Assembly (NCBI RefSeq): GCF_900103535.1
Contig: NZ_FNHQ01000008.1
Span: 1 to 64,000 of the forward strand
Source of the DNA: Megasphaera paucivorans
GTDB taxonomy: Bacteria > Bacillota > Negativicutes > Veillonellales > Megasphaeraceae
Direction: 5' to 3'
DNA: 64,000 nt
The first letter of the stretch is position 1. The number at the start of each line of letters is the position of its first letter. Both the position numbers and the translations under genes were made by a program. The notes under the pieces were generated by a model. It was given only the letters and a program-made list of their open reading frames with translations. It was not told where the DNA came from and ran no database searches. Of the stretch, positions 54,298-63,994 are shown in pieces.

Positions 54298-54461
54298 TAT
54301 TTGATATTATTTTGTAAGATATATGGAAAGCATAAATGTATAAAAATAAAATAGATGTTTTTTTATTTGATAGGAACATCACGAAAAATTTATCATTTGC
54401 AATTAGTATTGATGGGGGTTGATGAAGTGAGCTTCTATATTATTTATGTAAAAAATAGAAA

Positions 54462-54490
54462 TTGAAAAACATTTTTATACATGCTATAGT
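54462..54490 (+). promoter_or_regulatory. Promoter of the lactate permease gene
   Basis: TTGAAA (54462-54467), 17 bp, TATAGT (54485-54490) with upstream TGC (extended -10), 48 bases before the start. Confidence 0.75.
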
Positions 54491-54537
54491 TTATTTATAA
54501 TAAAAAGTGGAAAGTATTATAAGGAGGTGGATGTTTT

Positions 54538-56395: not shown

Positions 56396-57679
56396 ATGAA
56401 AAAAATTACCTTACCGTTTGGACAGGAGACACTAGAGATTTCCCTGCCTGATGAAAGAGTGGCAGGCATATTAGTTTCTCATGCACACGAATATAAAGCG
56501 GCTAAAACGGAAACAGAACTTGTTTCGGAAGCCTTAGCTAATCCAATTGGCAGTCCGAGATTAAGTGAACTGGCTAAAGGAAAGTCAACGTGTGTTATCA
56601 TTTCCAGTGATCATACGCGTCCGGTTCCCAGCCATATTATTATGCCGCAGTTATTAAAGGAATTACGCGCGGCTAATCCGGATATTGTTATCAGTATATT
56701 GGTGGCTACAGGTATGCACCGTCCACCGACAAAAGATGAATTAATTCAAAAATATGGGGCTGAAATAGCAAATAAGGAATCATTTATTATTCATGTGAGT
56801 CGAAATGATGACGATATGGTCAGTGTGGGAACATTGCCTTCTGGTGGAGACTGCCGCATTAATAAAGCGGCTGCCAATGCAGATTTACTTATATCTGAAG
56901 GATTTATAGAACCTCATTTCTTTGCAGGCATGTCGGGCGGAAGAAAGTCTGTTCTTCCGGGAATTGCCAGTCAGGTGACCGTCCTAGCGAATCATTGTTC
57001 TGAATTCATTGATAATCCCAATGCACGTACAGGAATTCTTAAGGGAAATCCGATTCATGAGGATATGTTGTATGCAGCGAAAGCTGCTAAATTGGCGTTT
57101 ATCTGTAATGTTGTCATCAATGCTGATAAAAAAATTATTGCTGCATTTGCCGGAGACTGTGAGAAAGCACATTATCAAGGGGTTGAGTTTGAAATGGCTC
57201 TTGCGGGTGTTCGGCCGGTGCCTGCCGACATTGTAGTATCTACCAATGGCGGATATCCCTTAGATCAAAATTTGTATCAGTCAGTAAAAGGGATGACGGC
57301 AGCAGAAGCAACTTGCAAAGAGGGAGGCGTTATTATTATGTGCTCTGCTTGCAGTGACGGACATGGCGGAATTGATTTTTACAATACCTTAAAAGAGTCA
57401 TCGGATATTCAGCAAGCGATGAATATCATAATAAGTCGCAGTCGAAATGAAACTGTATTTGATCAGTGGGAATCACAAATCCTATTGCGGCTGCTGCTTC
57501 ATTTTACGATTATTATGGTAACGCGGGCTCCCAAACAGCTTGTGGAAGATATGCATTTAAGATATGCAGAAACCTTTGAAGATGCTTTGCAGCAAGCGGA
57601 TGATATATTGTGGCATAAGGGAATACAAAATCCTAAAATTACGATTATTCCGGATGGAGTATCTGTTATTGTCAAGTAG
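56396..57679 (+). CDS. larA: Nickel-dependent lactate racemase
   Basis: 427 residues interconverting D- and L-lactate by hydride transfer on a nickel pincer cofactor. All four residues known from the Lactobacillus plantarum enzyme fall at the same numbers: H108 (MHRP), H174 (EPHFF), K184 (GGRKSVLPG, cofactor attachment) and H200 (ANHC). HTRPVPSH at 73-80 is conserved. The cofactor genes larB, larC and larE are not in this window. It is placed next to lactate permease, which supports the call. Confidence 0.95.
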   Translation: MKKITLPFGQETLEISLPDERVAGILVSHAHEYKAAKTETELVSEALANPIGSPRLSELAKGKSTCVIISSDHTRPVPSHIIMPQLLKELRAANPDIVISILVATGMHRPPTKDELIQKYGAEIANKESFIIHVSRNDDDMVSVGTLPSGGDCRINKAAANADLLISEGFIEPHFFAGMSGGRKSVLPGIASQVTVLANHCSEFIDNPNARTGILKGNPIHEDMLYAAKAAKLAFICNVVINADKKIIAAFAGDCEKAHYQGVEFEMALAGVRPVPADIVVSTNGGYPLDQNLYQSVKGMTAAEATCKEGGVIIMCSACSDGHGGIDFYNTLKESSDIQQAMNIIISRSRNETVFDQWESQILLRLLLHFTIIMVTRAPKQLVEDMHLRYAETFEDALQQADDILWHKGIQNPKITIIPDGVSVIVK

Positions 57680-57785
57680 ATAGAAACTGGGAAGGCTTCC
57701 AAGGTGAAGTGTTTCTCATCGGTGCATGAAGATTTTTAATATATTTGTAGTTAATTTTTAAAATATTTGGCTGTACAATATAAGG

Positions 57786-57838
57786 ACACGGATAAGTGTA
57801 TGAAGTATTTCTTCTTAGATTTGTCCGTGTTTTTTTGT
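57786..57838 (+). terminator. Terminator after larA
   Basis: ACACGGA (57786-57792) pairs with TCCGTGT (57824-57830), with partial pairing inside, followed by seven T. Confidence 0.8.
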
Positions 57839-57911
57839 ATAGCGGGAATGTCGAATAGTTAATTTATAATCTGTCAAAAAGATAAAATACTTACAGTAAG
57901 AAGGTGTTTTT

Positions 57912-59276
57912 ATGGATTTTTTTTCTATTTTTAAAGGTATTATCCAAGCAGGCCCTACGGTTTTATTGCCAATTATTATTTTCTTTCTTGCCGTAGTATT
58001 TCGTGTATCCTTGGATAAGGCTTTACATAGTGCATTAACAGTGGGGGCGGGTTTTATTGGCTTGAAAGTTATTATTCAGTTTATGGCGAATGATCTGGGG
58101 CCTGCGACTAAGGCCATGGTTGCTCATATGGGAGTAAACCTTAATGTCATAGATATGGGATTTGGGACAGTGGCAGCAATTGGCTGGAGTACTCCGATTG
58201 TTCCCATAATTGTACTCCTTATTATGGTAATGAATATGGTATTACTTGTTTTAAATAAGACCAATACACTCAGTGTTGATATTTGGAATTATCACCATTC
58301 TCTGTCAATGGGTGCGTTTGTATATTTTACTACAAACAATATTTTTATCGCAGTAACAGCAGCCGCTTTTACTGCGTTAGTGATGTTTAAAATGTCTGAT
58401 TGGGCATCTCCTTTAATTAGCAATTATTATAAAATTCCGGGAGTTACTATTCCTGCTTTGCATGCGTTAATGAATTTACCTATTGTTATGCCGCTTAATC
58501 TTTTATTTGACCATATCCCCGGCGTAAAAGATGTGAATATTAATATGGATACATTGCGCAAATATATGGGGCCATTTGGACAACCGCTTGTCATAGGATT
58601 GATTTTAGGATTGGGTATCGGGGTGTGTGCTGGGTATGATATTTATAAAGCATTTGGTTTAGGAGTAAACATGGCAGCAGTCATGTTGCTTTTACCTAAA
58701 ATGACGGGATTGTTTGTTACTGGATTGAAACCGATTTCTGCACGGGCAAAAGAAATTACGGATGCCAAATTAAAAGGACGATCTATTTTTATTGGGTTAG
58801 ATCCTGCCATTTTATTTGGGGATCCGGCAGTTATTACTACAGCGTTACTGATGGTGCCTATTCTTATTATTATGACTATTATTTTACCGGGCAATAATTT
58901 TCTTCCTTTTGCGGATTTAGGGGCATTGCCTTATAAAGTAGCCATGTGCGTTGCTGTGACAAATGGAAATATTTTTCGCAGTATATTTTTTTGTACAATC
59001 GCATTTATTCCCTATTTTTATTGTGCTACATGGACCGCTGCCATGGTTACAAATACTGCTAAAGCAGTAGGATTAGGGAGCAGTATCCCGAGTGGAATGC
59101 TGATTAGTTCATTTACAGGTACGACGATGCCTCTTACGTTTTTAATATACAAAGCATGCATTGGTAATCTTTGGATTACATTACCACTGCTTTTGATATC
59201 GTTTGTGATTGGTTGGTTTGTGATCGATAAAAAAGTTTTACCAAAATTAAAGATTATTAAAGCGTATCAAAAATAA
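57912..59276 (+). CDS. Orphan galactitol-type PTS EIIC-like permease
   Basis: 454 residues, about eleven membrane helices, closest by pattern to the galactitol IIC (SgcC/GatC) family: GFGTVAAIGWSTPIVP, GLDPAILFGDPAVITTALLM, CVAVTNGNIFRS. No EIIA, EIIB, HPr or sugar-phosphate enzyme lies nearby. Either it uses PTS parts from elsewhere or works as a non-PTS carrier, perhaps for a carboxylate given its neighbours. It is bounded by terminators and so is monocistronic. Confidence 0.82.
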   Translation: MDFFSIFKGIIQAGPTVLLPIIIFFLAVVFRVSLDKALHSALTVGAGFIGLKVIIQFMANDLGPATKAMVAHMGVNLNVIDMGFGTVAAIGWSTPIVPIIVLLIMVMNMVLLVLNKTNTLSVDIWNYHHSLSMGAFVYFTTNNIFIAVTAAAFTALVMFKMSDWASPLISNYYKIPGVTIPALHALMNLPIVMPLNLLFDHIPGVKDVNINMDTLRKYMGPFGQPLVIGLILGLGIGVCAGYDIYKAFGLGVNMAAVMLLLPKMTGLFVTGLKPISARAKEITDAKLKGRSIFIGLDPAILFGDPAVITTALLMVPILIIMTIILPGNNFLPFADLGALPYKVAMCVAVTNGNIFRSIFFCTIAFIPYFYCATWTAAMVTNTAKAVGLGSSIPSGMLISSFTGTTMPLTFLIYKACIGNLWITLPLLLISFVIGWFVIDKKVLPKLKIIKAYQK

Positions 59277-59383: not shown

Positions 59384-59492
59384 ATGGTGCAATAATGAGA
59401 TAGGTATATTCATAATAATCTCTATGCGAAGATGTAATTTTATCATAAATAAACATATCTGTATAACAAATTAGCATAATAGTTATTATAAA

Positions 59493-59528
59493 TTTTTATG
59501 GACGGGTATCAACATTCCATATTTTACA
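59493..59528 (+). promoter_or_regulatory. Conserved element upstream of the 2HCT transporter
   Basis: 36 bp aligned without gaps to 62221-62256 before pckA with 27 identities, including TTTTTATGGA, GTATC and TATTTTACA. It lies 145 bases before the transporter start. It is a likely operator for the nearby LysR regulator. Confidence 0.65.
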
Positions 59529-59637
59529 AAATAGTCATAATACAGTACTATAAACTCATAAAGCATATCGTCTAAAGCTATGGATAAAAGTAAATATTAA
59601 TTAGCAGGGAAGAATTCATTTATTAGGAGGCTGGATT

Positions 59638-60984
59638 ATGTTAAATTTAGAGACACAGAATGGGGCATTGGAGCGGTCGACATTTCAATCGAAGCTTTTT
59701 GGAATTAAAATCAATATCGTTCCCTTGGGCATCTATTTATTTATGCTTGTTTGTATGTTTTTAGCAGTAAACAGAGGTCTTATGCCGTCGGGACTTATCG
59801 GAGGCATGACGTTGCTGGCACTTTATGGATATGCTTGCGCGGAATTGGGCGGACGCATCCCGCTTTTAAAATATGTTGGCGGCACGGTTATTATGGCTAC
59901 TTTTCTTCCTTCCTATTTGGTATATGTCGATTTGATTCCGAAACTGGCTGTAACATCTATTGTAACCTTTATGAAGACTACTAATTTCTTATATGTATAT
60001 ATTGCTTGTTTAGTAGTAGGCAGTATCTGCAGCATGAATCGATATGTATTAGTAAAAGCATTTCTTAAGATGTTTGTACCTTTAGTTATCGGTACTATTG
60101 TGGCTATGGCAGTAGGTACTTTAGCAGGTGTGCTTCTTGGTATTGGCTGGTATCATACATTTTTCTTTATTGTCATCCCTATACTTGCCGGCGGCGTGGG
60201 AGAAGGTGCCCTTCCGCTTTCAATGGGGTATTCTTCTATCATGGGAACGGAACAAGATGCCATTTTTGCCTCTGTTCTTCCTTGTGTTATGTTGGGGAGT
60301 CTTCTGGCTATTATTATTTCCGGTGGATTAAACATGTTAGGACAAAAGCATCCTGAGTATACGGGAAATGGAAACTTATTAAAAACTGGCGATGATGAAG
60401 TATTAAAAGCAGCAGCGATTGCTGAAGAAGAAAAAAAGAAAATACCTATTGATAATACGAAAATGCTTAACGTTGCTTTATTTGCGTTTTCCTTGTTTAT
60501 TGGCGGGACTTGGGTGGATTCTGTCATTGGTTTACCAGCGCCTATTGTTATGCTGGTGACCGCAGTTTGCTTGAAGGCTGCCGGACTTGTACCCGATTAT
60601 GTGGATCAAGGCGCACATGCTTTGTTTCGCTTTATAGTTCTTTTCACTCCCCCGTTATTGCTGGGTGTAGGCGTTGCTATGACACCTTGGAAAAATGTTG
60701 TCGCTGTATTTACCAATCCTGCATATCTTGTTATTATTTTCATAACAGTGGCCTCTCTTATTGCAACTGCATGGTTTATCAGTCAGAAATTGAATATGAA
60801 TCCAGTGGAAGCAGCTATGGTAGTCGCTTGTCACAGCGGACAGGGCGGAACGGGTGATGTTGCGATTCTAACTGCCGGTAAACGATTGGAATTGATGCCG
60901 TTTGCTCAAGTATCTACACGCCTTGGCGGTGTTGCCAACGTGACGATGGCAATTGCGCTAATGCGTATTTTGGCAGGAAATTAA
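59638..60984 (+). CDS. 2-hydroxycarboxylate transporter (CitS/MleP family)
   Basis: 448 residues, about eleven helices. The two inverted halves each carry a glycine-rich re-entrant loop: GGVGEGALPLS (about residue 185) and HSGQGGTGDVAIL (about 400). The family carries citrate, malate or lactate by symport or exchange. The neighbouring pckA and LysR genes suggest malate or citrate use; this is inference. AGGAGGCTGG precedes the ATG. Confidence 0.92.
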   Translation: MLNLETQNGALERSTFQSKLFGIKINIVPLGIYLFMLVCMFLAVNRGLMPSGLIGGMTLLALYGYACAELGGRIPLLKYVGGTVIMATFLPSYLVYVDLIPKLAVTSIVTFMKTTNFLYVYIACLVVGSICSMNRYVLVKAFLKMFVPLVIGTIVAMAVGTLAGVLLGIGWYHTFFFIVIPILAGGVGEGALPLSMGYSSIMGTEQDAIFASVLPCVMLGSLLAIIISGGLNMLGQKHPEYTGNGNLLKTGDDEVLKAAAIAEEEKKKIPIDNTKMLNVALFAFSLFIGGTWVDSVIGLPAPIVMLVTAVCLKAAGLVPDYVDQGAHALFRFIVLFTPPLLLGVGVAMTPWKNVVAVFTNPAYLVIIFITVASLIATAWFISQKLNMNPVEAAMVVACHSGQGGTGDVAILTAGKRLELMPFAQVSTRLGGVANVTMAIALMRILAGN

Positions 60985-60992
60985 TCTGTTGG

Positions 60993-61041
60993 GAAAACAG
61001 TAAGAATTGAGACTGAAATTATCAATTCTTACTGTTTTCTT
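60993..61041 (+). terminator. Terminator after the 2HCT transporter
   Basis: GAAAACAGTAAGAATTGA (60993-61010) pairs with its full complement at 61022-61039, an 18-bp stem, but only short T runs follow. Confidence 0.85.
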
Positions 61042-61289
61042 GTGTGTGAAACAACGTGTTAGTATAAATCCGGCTATGTGTATTAAGGAAATGGATGTTT
61101 TTATGGACAGTCACCCTGATTACCTTTAAGACGATACATACGATACGGCAGACATAGTTCTAACTGCTACACGAACCTTTGTACGAATGGGGTGTAGCAG
61201 TTTTTTTGTGAATACGATGTATTTAATTTACAGTTGTATCGTTTAATAGTATTATTAAAGCATACAAAACAGAAAAGGAGGGATATCTA
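61042..61289 (+). other. Intergenic region with second terminator and LysR promoter region
   Basis: Holds a second terminator hairpin (61162-61208), then a stretch with TTTACAGTTGTATCGT (61227-61242) that partly resembles the element before pckA and is bracketed by ACGAT/ATCGT. No coding frame is convincing. The 120 bases between the two terminators could be a small RNA, but no good promoter is seen. Confidence 0.45.
61162..61208 (+). terminator. Rho-independent terminator of unknown transcript
   Basis: AACTGCTACAC (61162-61172) pairs with GTGTAGCAGTT (61192-61202), followed by T. Confidence 0.85.
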
Positions 61290-62150
61290 TTGGATGATCG
61301 AGATTGGCAGATATTATATATTCTTTATAAAGAAAAGAATATTACGAAAACAGCGCAGCTTTTGTATATTTCTCAGCCCGCTTTGACAGCACGGCTAAAG
61401 CATATTGAACAATGTTTCAATGTGACGGTAGTGAATCGAGGACATAAGGGAGTTACGTTTACAACAGAAGGAGAGTATCTGGCACGTGTTGCAGAGAGTA
61501 TGATGCAGCAAATGCGCCATATTCGTGAAGAAGTGTCAAATTTGGATACCAGTATGCGCGGGGTATTATTTATCGGGGCATCCAGTTATTTTACTATGTT
61601 TACTATGCCCAAAGTATTAAAGAAATTTAAAGAACTATATCCTAATATTGATTTTAATGTTACTACGACCTGGAGTCAGGATGTTAGCAAATTATTAGAC
61701 AATCAGCAAATTCATATTGGATTTGTTAGTGCCGATTACGGGGCATGTTCTACACGGGAAGTGCTATATGAAGAACCGATATGCATCGCATCTAGCCAGG
61801 CATTTCAATTAGAAGATATCCCTTTTCTGCCACGTATTGATTATGATACCGACGGTATGATAAAATTGCGTATTGATAAATGGTGGCGGCAGCATTTTAA
61901 TAATCCGCCTTTAATCAATATGAAAGTAGACCGGCTGGCAACTTGCCGGGAAATGATCAAAGCGGGATTAGGGTATGGCATTGTTCCCTCACGGATTATT
62001 CGGGGGCTGGATGATATATATACGTATAAACTTCAAGATGAACAGGGACAGGATCTTATTCGAAAGACATGGCTGCTATATCATCCGGAAGTTGTGAATT
62101 TGCGAATTGCAAAAGTATTTATTGATTTTGTTAAAAACTTTGAATTTTAA
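61290..62150 (+). CDS. LysR-family transcriptional regulator
   Basis: 286 residues. N-terminal winged helix-turn-helix (WQILYILYKEKNITKTAQLL, then ISQPALTARLKHIEQ), and a C-terminal substrate-binding domain with VLFIGASSYFTMFTMPKVL. Start is TTG 61290 after AAAAGGAGGGAT. It lies between the 2HCT transporter and pckA, which share an upstream 36-bp element, so these are likely targets. The inducer is probably a carboxylate. Confidence 0.93.
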   Translation: MDDRDWQILYILYKEKNITKTAQLLYISQPALTARLKHIEQCFNVTVVNRGHKGVTFTTEGEYLARVAESMMQQMRHIREEVSNLDTSMRGVLFIGASSYFTMFTMPKVLKKFKELYPNIDFNVTTTWSQDVSKLLDNQQIHIGFVSADYGACSTREVLYEEPICIASSQAFQLEDIPFLPRIDYDTDGMIKLRIDKWWRQHFNNPPLINMKVDRLATCREMIKAGLGYGIVPSRIIRGLDDIYTYKLQDEQGQDLIRKTWLLYHPEVVNLRIAKVFIDFVKNFEF

Positions 62151-62160
62151 TAGAAAGAAA

Positions 62161-62197
62161 AGATCTGAAGGATTTAGTGTCCATCAGGTCTTTTTGT
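62161..62197 (+). terminator. Terminator after the LysR gene
   Basis: AGATCTGA pairs with TCAGGTCT (one G-T pair), followed by TTTTGTTTTT. Confidence 0.7.
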
Positions 62198-62220
62198 TTT
62201 TCTAAAACAGCTATCAAATT

Positions 62221-62256
62221 TTTTTATGGATAAGTATCGAAACCCAGTATTTTACA
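62221..62256 (+). promoter_or_regulatory. Conserved element upstream of pckA
   Basis: Matches 59493-59528 at 27 of 36 positions without gaps, 136 bases before the pckA start. In addition AGTATCGA occurs twice (62233-62240 and 62256-62263), about two helical turns apart, a layout fitting a regulator dimer pair. Confidence 0.65.
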
Positions 62257-62356
62257 GTATCGACAGCATGCGATATCCTACAGATAGGAAGAATAATAAC
62301 TCAATTGATGTATAACTGTAGATTATAGGAAAATCAGTTATGAAGGAGGAACAGCG

Positions 62357-63994
62357 ATGGAGACATTTGGTTTAGAAAAACTGGGAATGCATAATCTGAA
62401 ATCTGTACACCGTAATTTACCCCCTGCGGTTTTGACAGAAGAAGCTGTTAAAAGGGGGGAGGGAATTATAAGCGAAACAGGTGCATTATTTGTCAATACC
62501 GGTAAATTTACAGGCCGAGCTTCAAAGGATAAATTTATTGTCGATACACCTGCTGTTCATGACAAAATTTGCTGGGGCAATGTTAACAGGCCTATTAGTA
62601 AACAAAAATTTGATGTGTTAAAGGAAAAATTGACTGCTTATCTGCAAAATACAGATATATTTATATTTGATGGATTTGCCGGTGCCGATCCGGCAAGCAC
62701 AAAAAAGTTTCGTATTGTAAATGAGTATGCAAGTCAAAATTTATTTATGCATGATCTGTTGATACGCCCTACAGAATCGCAATTAGAGAAGTTCGGAGAG
62801 CCGGATTTTACTATTATTGCCGCCCCCAGCTTTATGTGTGATCCCTTGACAGATGGGGTTCATTCAGAAGCAGCTATTATTATTGATTATGAAGCTAAAA
62901 TGGTGCTTATTGCCGGAACACAGTATTCTGGAGAAATAAAAAAAGCTGTCTTCGCTATTATGAATTATCTTATGCCGCAGGAAGATATCCTGCCGATGCA
63001 TTGCTCTGCCAATATGGATCCCAAAACAAAAGAAACGGCTATCTTTTTCGGTCTTTCCGGTACAGGTAAGACTACACTTTCTGCAGATCCTGAACGTATA
63101 TTGATTGGGGATGATGAACATGGCTGGTCTGATACAGGCGTGTTTAATTTTGAAGGCGGGTGTTATGCAAAGTGCATTCATTTGAATCCTGAAAATGAAC
63201 CGGAAATTTATCATGCGATCCGTTTTGGCAGTCTTGTGGAAAATGTTGTTATTGATCCGATTACGCGTAAGCCGGATTATGATGATAACAGCTTATCCGA
63301 AAATACACGTGTGGGATATCCGATAGAATTTATCCCTAATGTAGCGATTCCTGGGATCGGGGGTATTCCCAAAGTTATTATTTTTTTGGCTGCAGATAGT
63401 TTTGGTGTTCTGCCTCCTATTTCCCGGCTTGATAAAAATGCGGCAATGTACCATTTTGTGACGGGCTTTACCTCCAAGGTAGCCGGTACGGAGCAGGGAA
63501 TTACAGAACCGGTGCCAACTTTTTCTACACTTTTTGGGGAGCCTTTTATGCCGCTGCATCCCGATGTATATGCCCATATGCTGGGAGAGAAAATTGAAAA
63601 ATACAATACGAAAGTATATTTGGTAAATACCGGATGGACCGGTGGCTCCTATGGAACGGGAAACCGTATGAAGCTTTCTTATACACGCGCTATGATAACC
63701 GCTGCACTCAATGGTGAATTGGATACTGCTGCATACAAGCACGACGCAGTGTTTAATTTAGATGTACCGCAGCATTGTTCCCATGTGCCTGAGCGTATCA
63801 TGAATCCCAGAGATACATGGAAAGATAAAAATGCTTATGACAGAACCGCCAAAAAATTAGCAAAGATGTTTTATGAAAATTTTATGGAAAAATATCCTAC
63901 TATGCCAAAGGAAATAATTAATGCCGGTCCCGGCGGCGAATTGACGGTAAAGGAAGATACATATTTTAATGAGAATTGTGCGAGGGCAATGTGA
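62357..63994 (+). CDS. pckA: Phosphoenolpyruvate carboxykinase (ATP)
   Basis: 545 residues interconverting oxaloacetate and PEP. The kinase loop GLSGTGKTTLSADP, the metal site LIGDDEHGWSD, FNFEGGCYAKCIHL and NTGWTGGSYGTGNRMKL are all present. With the malate/citrate-type carrier it can feed C4 acids to PEP, or fix CO2 in reverse. GAAGGAGGAAC precedes the ATG. An AGGAGG at the very end of the window (63995-64000) shows another gene follows. Confidence 0.97.
   Translation: METFGLEKLGMHNLKSVHRNLPPAVLTEEAVKRGEGIISETGALFVNTGKFTGRASKDKFIVDTPAVHDKICWGNVNRPISKQKFDVLKEKLTAYLQNTDIFIFDGFAGADPASTKKFRIVNEYASQNLFMHDLLIRPTESQLEKFGEPDFTIIAAPSFMCDPLTDGVHSEAAIIIDYEAKMVLIAGTQYSGEIKKAVFAIMNYLMPQEDILPMHCSANMDPKTKETAIFFGLSGTGKTTLSADPERILIGDDEHGWSDTGVFNFEGGCYAKCIHLNPENEPEIYHAIRFGSLVENVVIDPITRKPDYDDNSLSENTRVGYPIEFIPNVAIPGIGGIPKVIIFLAADSFGVLPPISRLDKNAAMYHFVTGFTSKVAGTEQGITEPVPTFSTLFGEPFMPLHPDVYAHMLGEKIEKYNTKVYLVNTGWTGGSYGTGNRMKLSYTRAMITAALNGELDTAAYKHDAVFNLDVPQHCSHVPERIMNPRDTWKDKNAYDRTAKKLAKMFYENFMEKYPTMPKEIINAGPGGELTVKEDTYFNENCARAM

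Follow-up and report, generated by a model that had tools for sequence, protein, structure and literature searches.

Two similar short elements lie on either side of a LysR-type regulator gene in the 64,000-nucleotide stretch of Megasphaera paucivorans DNA analysed here (the window), one preceding a 2-hydroxycarboxylate transporter gene and the other preceding pckA, and the question raised by this locus is whether they place both genes under a single regulator. One regulator over the transporter and pckA had been proposed from the letters of the window, and this proposal was strongly supported by our comparison across genomes, which suggested that both elements very probably serve as operator-promoters through which the LysR protein whose gene they flank controls a single citrate regulon.

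Two elements and three probable transcription units

Re-alignment of 59493-59528 with 62221-62256 agreed with the ungapped identity of 27 of 36 positions given before, including the blocks that had been described as identical, and the distances to the two start codons, 145 and 136 bases, were likewise correct when each element was counted from its first base. A Markov model was used to simulate 400 pairs of the two intergenic regions; none of them contained a 36-mer match above 26, and no other 36-mer of the window was identical to either copy at more than 23 of 36 positions. Throughout the 2.9 Mb genome, the shared 27-letter pattern, allowing up to three mismatches, occurred at these two places only (reversed control, 0), while a looser 16-letter pattern gave two perfect matches and nine others with two mismatches each (reversed control, 5). 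A pattern whose spacing was off by one base, which acts as a spacing control, had no matches. The element had been expected to recur at many unrelated places if it were a dispersed repeat, and since the genome search returned two copies only, a dispersed repeat or a phase-variable element was rejected. A genome-wide profile search with a sequence-only model scored 150 candidates out of 2550 from the first look; the matches listed did not include the known sites.

The genes themselves, all on the plus strand, were examined by family profiles. The transporter gene (59638-60984) encodes a member of the 2-hydroxycarboxylate transporter (2HCT) family, likely a citrate carrier, with 446 bits to PF03390 and 421 to TIGR00783, the latter below the cut-off of 549; its score against the CitS equivalog (224.8 versus a cut-off of 600) leaves it outside that equivalog, though within the wider 2HCT family by PF03390. 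A terminator-like 20-bp hairpin (60991-61041, z -6.9) stands 3' of this gene. The regulator gene (61290-62150, TTG start) encodes a CcpC-like LysR-type protein of 286 aa, in which PF00126 and PF03466 were both detected above the Pfam cut-offs, and is followed by a terminator-like hairpin with a T-run (62151-62204, z -6.3). The pckA gene (62357-63994), for an ATP-type PEP carboxykinase, heads the series pckA-citD-citE-citF: the start of citD, at contig position 64010, is 10 bp past the window edge and separated from pckA by a gap of 15 bp, and citE and citF come after it. CitD (66.8; cut-off 63.5) and CitF (706.8; cut-off 501) scored above their equivalog cut-offs, and CitE (339) fell within its family, below its own cut-off of 443. 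The terminator-like hairpins that follow the first two genes, together with separate -35/-10 pairs before all three genes, point to three units, namely carrier, lysR and pckA-citDEF. Because the last of these includes citDEF, its theme would be citrate fermentation; the earlier theme of acid uptake together with pckA was supported as to co-control but too generic as to function. No oxaloacetate decarboxylase gene lies within the pckA-citDEF unit. A gene for an OadA-like protein, scoring below the oadA cut-off, is present elsewhere in the genome (contig C61), and PckA thus need not be the sole exit for oxaloacetate.

Operator architecture and its conservation

For motif discovery, Gibbs sampling was applied to the regions upstream of citDEF and carrier genes in other genera of the Negativicutes, with the window sequence excluded, and converged on one motif; removal of four sites with poor placement left n = 27. 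The extended columns of this motif read AT-N11-AT-N8-AT-N11-AT, symmetric about one centre, followed by the -35 box and, 17-18 bp further on, by the -10 box, whose columns were also conserved across species. Each AT-N11-AT constitutes a T-N11-A LysR box, giving two boxes per operator, and all four AT pairs were in place in 26 of the 27 independent sites as well as at both window elements. When both strands of the window were searched, AT-N11-AT-N8-AT-N11-ATTTTAC was found at 59485 and 62213 only. This layout indicated that the 36-bp element described earlier takes in only the right-hand half of box I, together with box II and the -35 box. Both window sites also have the left-hand half of this box, which lies outside that element, and the predicted operator, about 38 bp with two T-N11-A boxes plus the -35 box, begins 8 bp further upstream.

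At the transporter gene, box I (ATTATAAATTTTTAT, 59485-59499), an AT-N11-AT sequence centred near -66, and box II (ATCAACATTCCATAT, 59508-59522), a motif match centred near -43, precede a promoter (59523-59551) composed of TTTACA (59523-59528), a 17-bp spacer and TACTAT (59546-59551). At pckA-citDEF, the motif matches ATCAAATTTTTTTAT (box I, 62213-62227) and ATCGAAACCCAGTAT (box II, 62236-62250) are likewise centred near -66 and -43, and the promoter (62251-62279) comprises TTTACA (62251-62256), a 17-bp spacer and TATCCT (62274-62279); all of these centres assume that transcription starts 7 bp past the -10 box. With T-N11-A boxes upstream of the targets and the first of them near -65, the two sites belong to the LysR operator class. 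An opposite-strand promoter, TTGATA-16-TATAAT (11/12 consensus), was also seen inside the transporter operator (59485-59512, minus strand).

Over about 128,000 window positions, the full 69-column matrix ranked the transporter site first (29.8 bits) and the pckA site second (14.8), and the next position reached 13.9; with a shorter 34-column matrix the pckA site had been fifth, and it became second after the addition of box I and the -10 region, both found afterwards from conservation. The training sites scored from 15.6 to 55.4 when held out. A score of 14.8 bits was not reached in 3 Mb of random sequence of window composition, a null that is lenient because a real, unrelated place of the window reaches 13.9. 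Given how close its score is to this best unrelated one, the pckA site owes its assignment in part to its location and its resemblance to the transporter site. Upstream of the lactate permease gene, at 54432-54500 on the minus strand, there is a weak operator-like match of 13.9 bits, which scores 11.1 in the sister genome.

This sister genome, of the same genus (Megasphaera sp. UW_MP_MEG2_1), encodes a regulator 97% identical to that of the window and carries the same three genes, carrier, lysR and pckA, in one locus (L008). The element proved to be conserved at these genes: around the carrier element, 75 consecutive bp ending at 59536 are unchanged in the sister, and around the pckA element 50 bp ending at 62260, while the genes themselves agree at only 78-82% of third codon positions and identity upstream of the carrier element drops to 60-85%. 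A second sister cluster (L009 571-5815) has a tandemly duplicated lysR in the order lysR-lysR-2HCT-citD-citE-citF, without pckA, and the operator before its 2HCT gene scored 27.3 bits. The sister comparison also bore on two smaller features. The octamer AGTATCGA does occur twice near pckA (62233 and 62256), as had been pointed out, but its second copy reads AGTATAGG in the sister genome, so that the repeat is not conserved and was rejected as a functional one. The sequence TTTACAGTTGTATCG before lysR, taken earlier for a partial operator copy, is present and conserved, but it turned out to be the -35 hexamer with the bases that follow it, in similar flanks. Autoregulation of lysR through the same site was not supported, the lysR promoter (TTTACA-N17-TATTAT, 61227-61255, conserved in L008) having -35 and -10 boxes without paired LysR boxes and giving no operator match by the matrix.

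Differences in gene content were noted as well. Between the carrier gene and lysR the sister locus has an alpha/beta-hydrolase-like gene (L008 6363-7406), of which the corresponding window stretch, 60985-61289, keeps only a short remnant of the start, and this gene was thus apparently lost. After lctP, the window carries genes for a nickel-dependent lactate racemase and for a lone permease of the EIIC-GAT type (56396-59276); in the sister genome this stretch has shrunk to fragments of EIIC, and larA had no match there.

A search of the class identified relatives of the regulator in 39 of 380 genomes. Twenty loci were read out (44-55% identity), and in most of these the regulator gene adjoins citDEF and/or a citrate-type transporter gene, the carriers often being of the CitMHS or Na_sulph_symp type; pckA was absent from all 20, and an OadA-like gene lies beyond citDEF in three of them (L078, L085 and L086, the last domain-checked). 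These surroundings suggested that the element marks a CcpC-like citrate-fermentation regulon. Outside the class, a Brevibacillus ortholog has a 19.0-bit site just downstream of the regulator gene. By contrast, the 2HCT homologs without this LysR nearby (L044, L045 and L047) had no site, with best scores of -4.8, -10.0 and 4.8. The operator architecture, its conservation, the promoter position, the gene content and the co-occurrence across genera are shown by the sequences themselves.

Could such a pattern have arisen without a shared regulator? Had a whole promoter region been duplicated, or were the elements a dispersed repeat, the long identical blocks that the two copies share, -35 box included, would be accounted for; however, the similarity ends at the operator borders, the genome holds just the two copies, and sites from many genera repeat the four AT positions while differing in their other letters, so that this explanation is largely refuted and must be regarded as very improbable. 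Binding by another LysR protein of the same branch, or by several paralogs with overlapping sites, deserves somewhat more weight, as T-N11-A boxes are general to LysR proteins and a paralogous CcpC-like LysR (29% identity) is associated with an operator-like site of the same architecture (32.9 bits; contig C43, about 88470-88550, or L037 8470-8550), which indicated that the motif is in part shared more generally within this LysR branch. Nevertheless, apart from the regulator's own locus (L026) and that on C43, every LysR locus of the genome scored below 13 bits, and fourteen stayed below 9; the loci that carry the site in other genera have an ortholog of the local LysR as their neighbouring regulator, and the site was missing at the 2HCT genes lacking this LysR; we therefore consider assignment to a paralog improbable. 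The C43 site possibly represents a second regulon with the same site design, and the paralog is divergent from a permease gene that, by eye, reads like the TauE/SafE family.

Relationship to CcpC and the likely mode of control

The closest PDB match to the regulator was CcpC (5z72, E 6e-44), the citrate-responsive LysR protein of citB and citZ in Bacillus and Listeria, and the recognition helices are similar (SQPALT/SQPALS). CcpE of Staphylococcus aureus, likewise LysR-type and citrate-responsive (PMC8514465), is more distant (family member 5z7h, E 4e-30). In Bacillus, CcpC is anchored at an ATAA-N7-TTAT dyad near -66 and makes a second contact near -27, which is weakened by citrate so that the -35 region opens (PMC8514465; PMC13288900). 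Box I at both window sites agrees with this dyad in seven of eight letters and has the same position as site I of CcpC, near -66. In contrast, the second site of CcpC is a half-dyad near -27, whereas a full T-N11-A box stands near -43 here, and CcpC targets aconitase and citrate synthase, whereas the genes here serve citrate uptake and citrate lyase. The regulator scored 211 bits against the CcpC equivalog NF058504 (cut-off 400), which leaves it outside that equivalog. Among the citrate contacts of CcpC, Ser129 and Arg260 are kept, while four of six are changed, namely Ile100 to Tyr (a backbone contact), Arg147 to Ser, Ser189 to Thr and Ser191 to Gly, the Arg147 change being common to nearly all orthologs. 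On account of these differences, the ligand may bind differently or may not be citrate. Oxaloacetate, the substrate of PckA, is a product of citrate lyase and not of citramalate lyase. This relation and the gene context make citrate the likely ligand.

A regulator acting mainly as a repressor relieved by its ligand, as CcpC does at citB, and/or responding to another acid such as malate or oxaloacetate, would be compatible with the strong -35 boxes (TTTACA) adjoining box II and with the partial conservation of the citrate-contact residues. The centre of box II, however, falls near -43 and precedes the -35 box, whereas CcpC lies over that box at -27 to -33, and the gene context is mostly citrate lyase; such a regulator thus seems unlikely, though considerably less so than control by a paralog. 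Activation by ligand is the mode that we prefer, since a full box II near -43 would be better placed for touching RNA polymerase than for obstructing the -35 box.

A proposed citrate regulon in Megasphaera

Control of both units by the LysR protein encoded between them is favoured because the motif built without the window ranks the two elements first and second, and because the AT pairs of the independent sites, the identity runs in the sister genome and the gene context of the orthologs converge on it. The 2HCT homologs lacking both this LysR and the site, the operator of the second sister cluster, the position of citDEF after pckA, and the citrate response of CcpC, the closest solved relative, argue for the same assignment. 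Binding by this particular LysR protein, citrate as its ligand, activation rather than derepression only, and flux through PckA are what we infer for its operation. A tetramer of the regulator would occupy box I (anchor, near -66) and box II (near -43, touching the -35 box) before the 2HCT carrier gene and pckA-citDEF; on sensing citrate or a close relative, its contact at box II would change, and RNA polymerase would transcribe both units. Imported citrate would be cleaved by citrate lyase into acetate and oxaloacetate, and the latter could be converted by PckA to PEP.

The Enterococcus faecalis citrate cluster with oxaloacetate decarboxylase (PMC6193673) also brings transporter, citrate lyase and regulator together; unlike clusters of that type, here pckA heads the citDEF unit and the regulator is LysR-type. 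A literature search found no described LysR regulator for the citrate-fermentation regulon of the Negativicutes, and an operator rule that holds across genera, together with the apparent capture of pckA, seems to be somewhat new. We tentatively suggest, with rather less than even confidence, that the regulator represents a distinct CcpC-like branch common in the Negativicutes, which would sense citrate through a changed pocket and serve anaerobic citrate fermentation, and that its regulon has captured pckA in this Megasphaera lineage, which would steer citrate carbon to PEP.

The operator defined here is precise and testable, and the citrate-fermentation regulon to which it is assigned recurs across many genera of the Negativicutes; the AT-N11-AT-N8-AT-N11-AT rule may be used to annotate such regulons elsewhere. 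Placing PEP carboxykinase and citrate breakdown under one control would bear on how PEP is made in lactate- and acid-using anaerobes.
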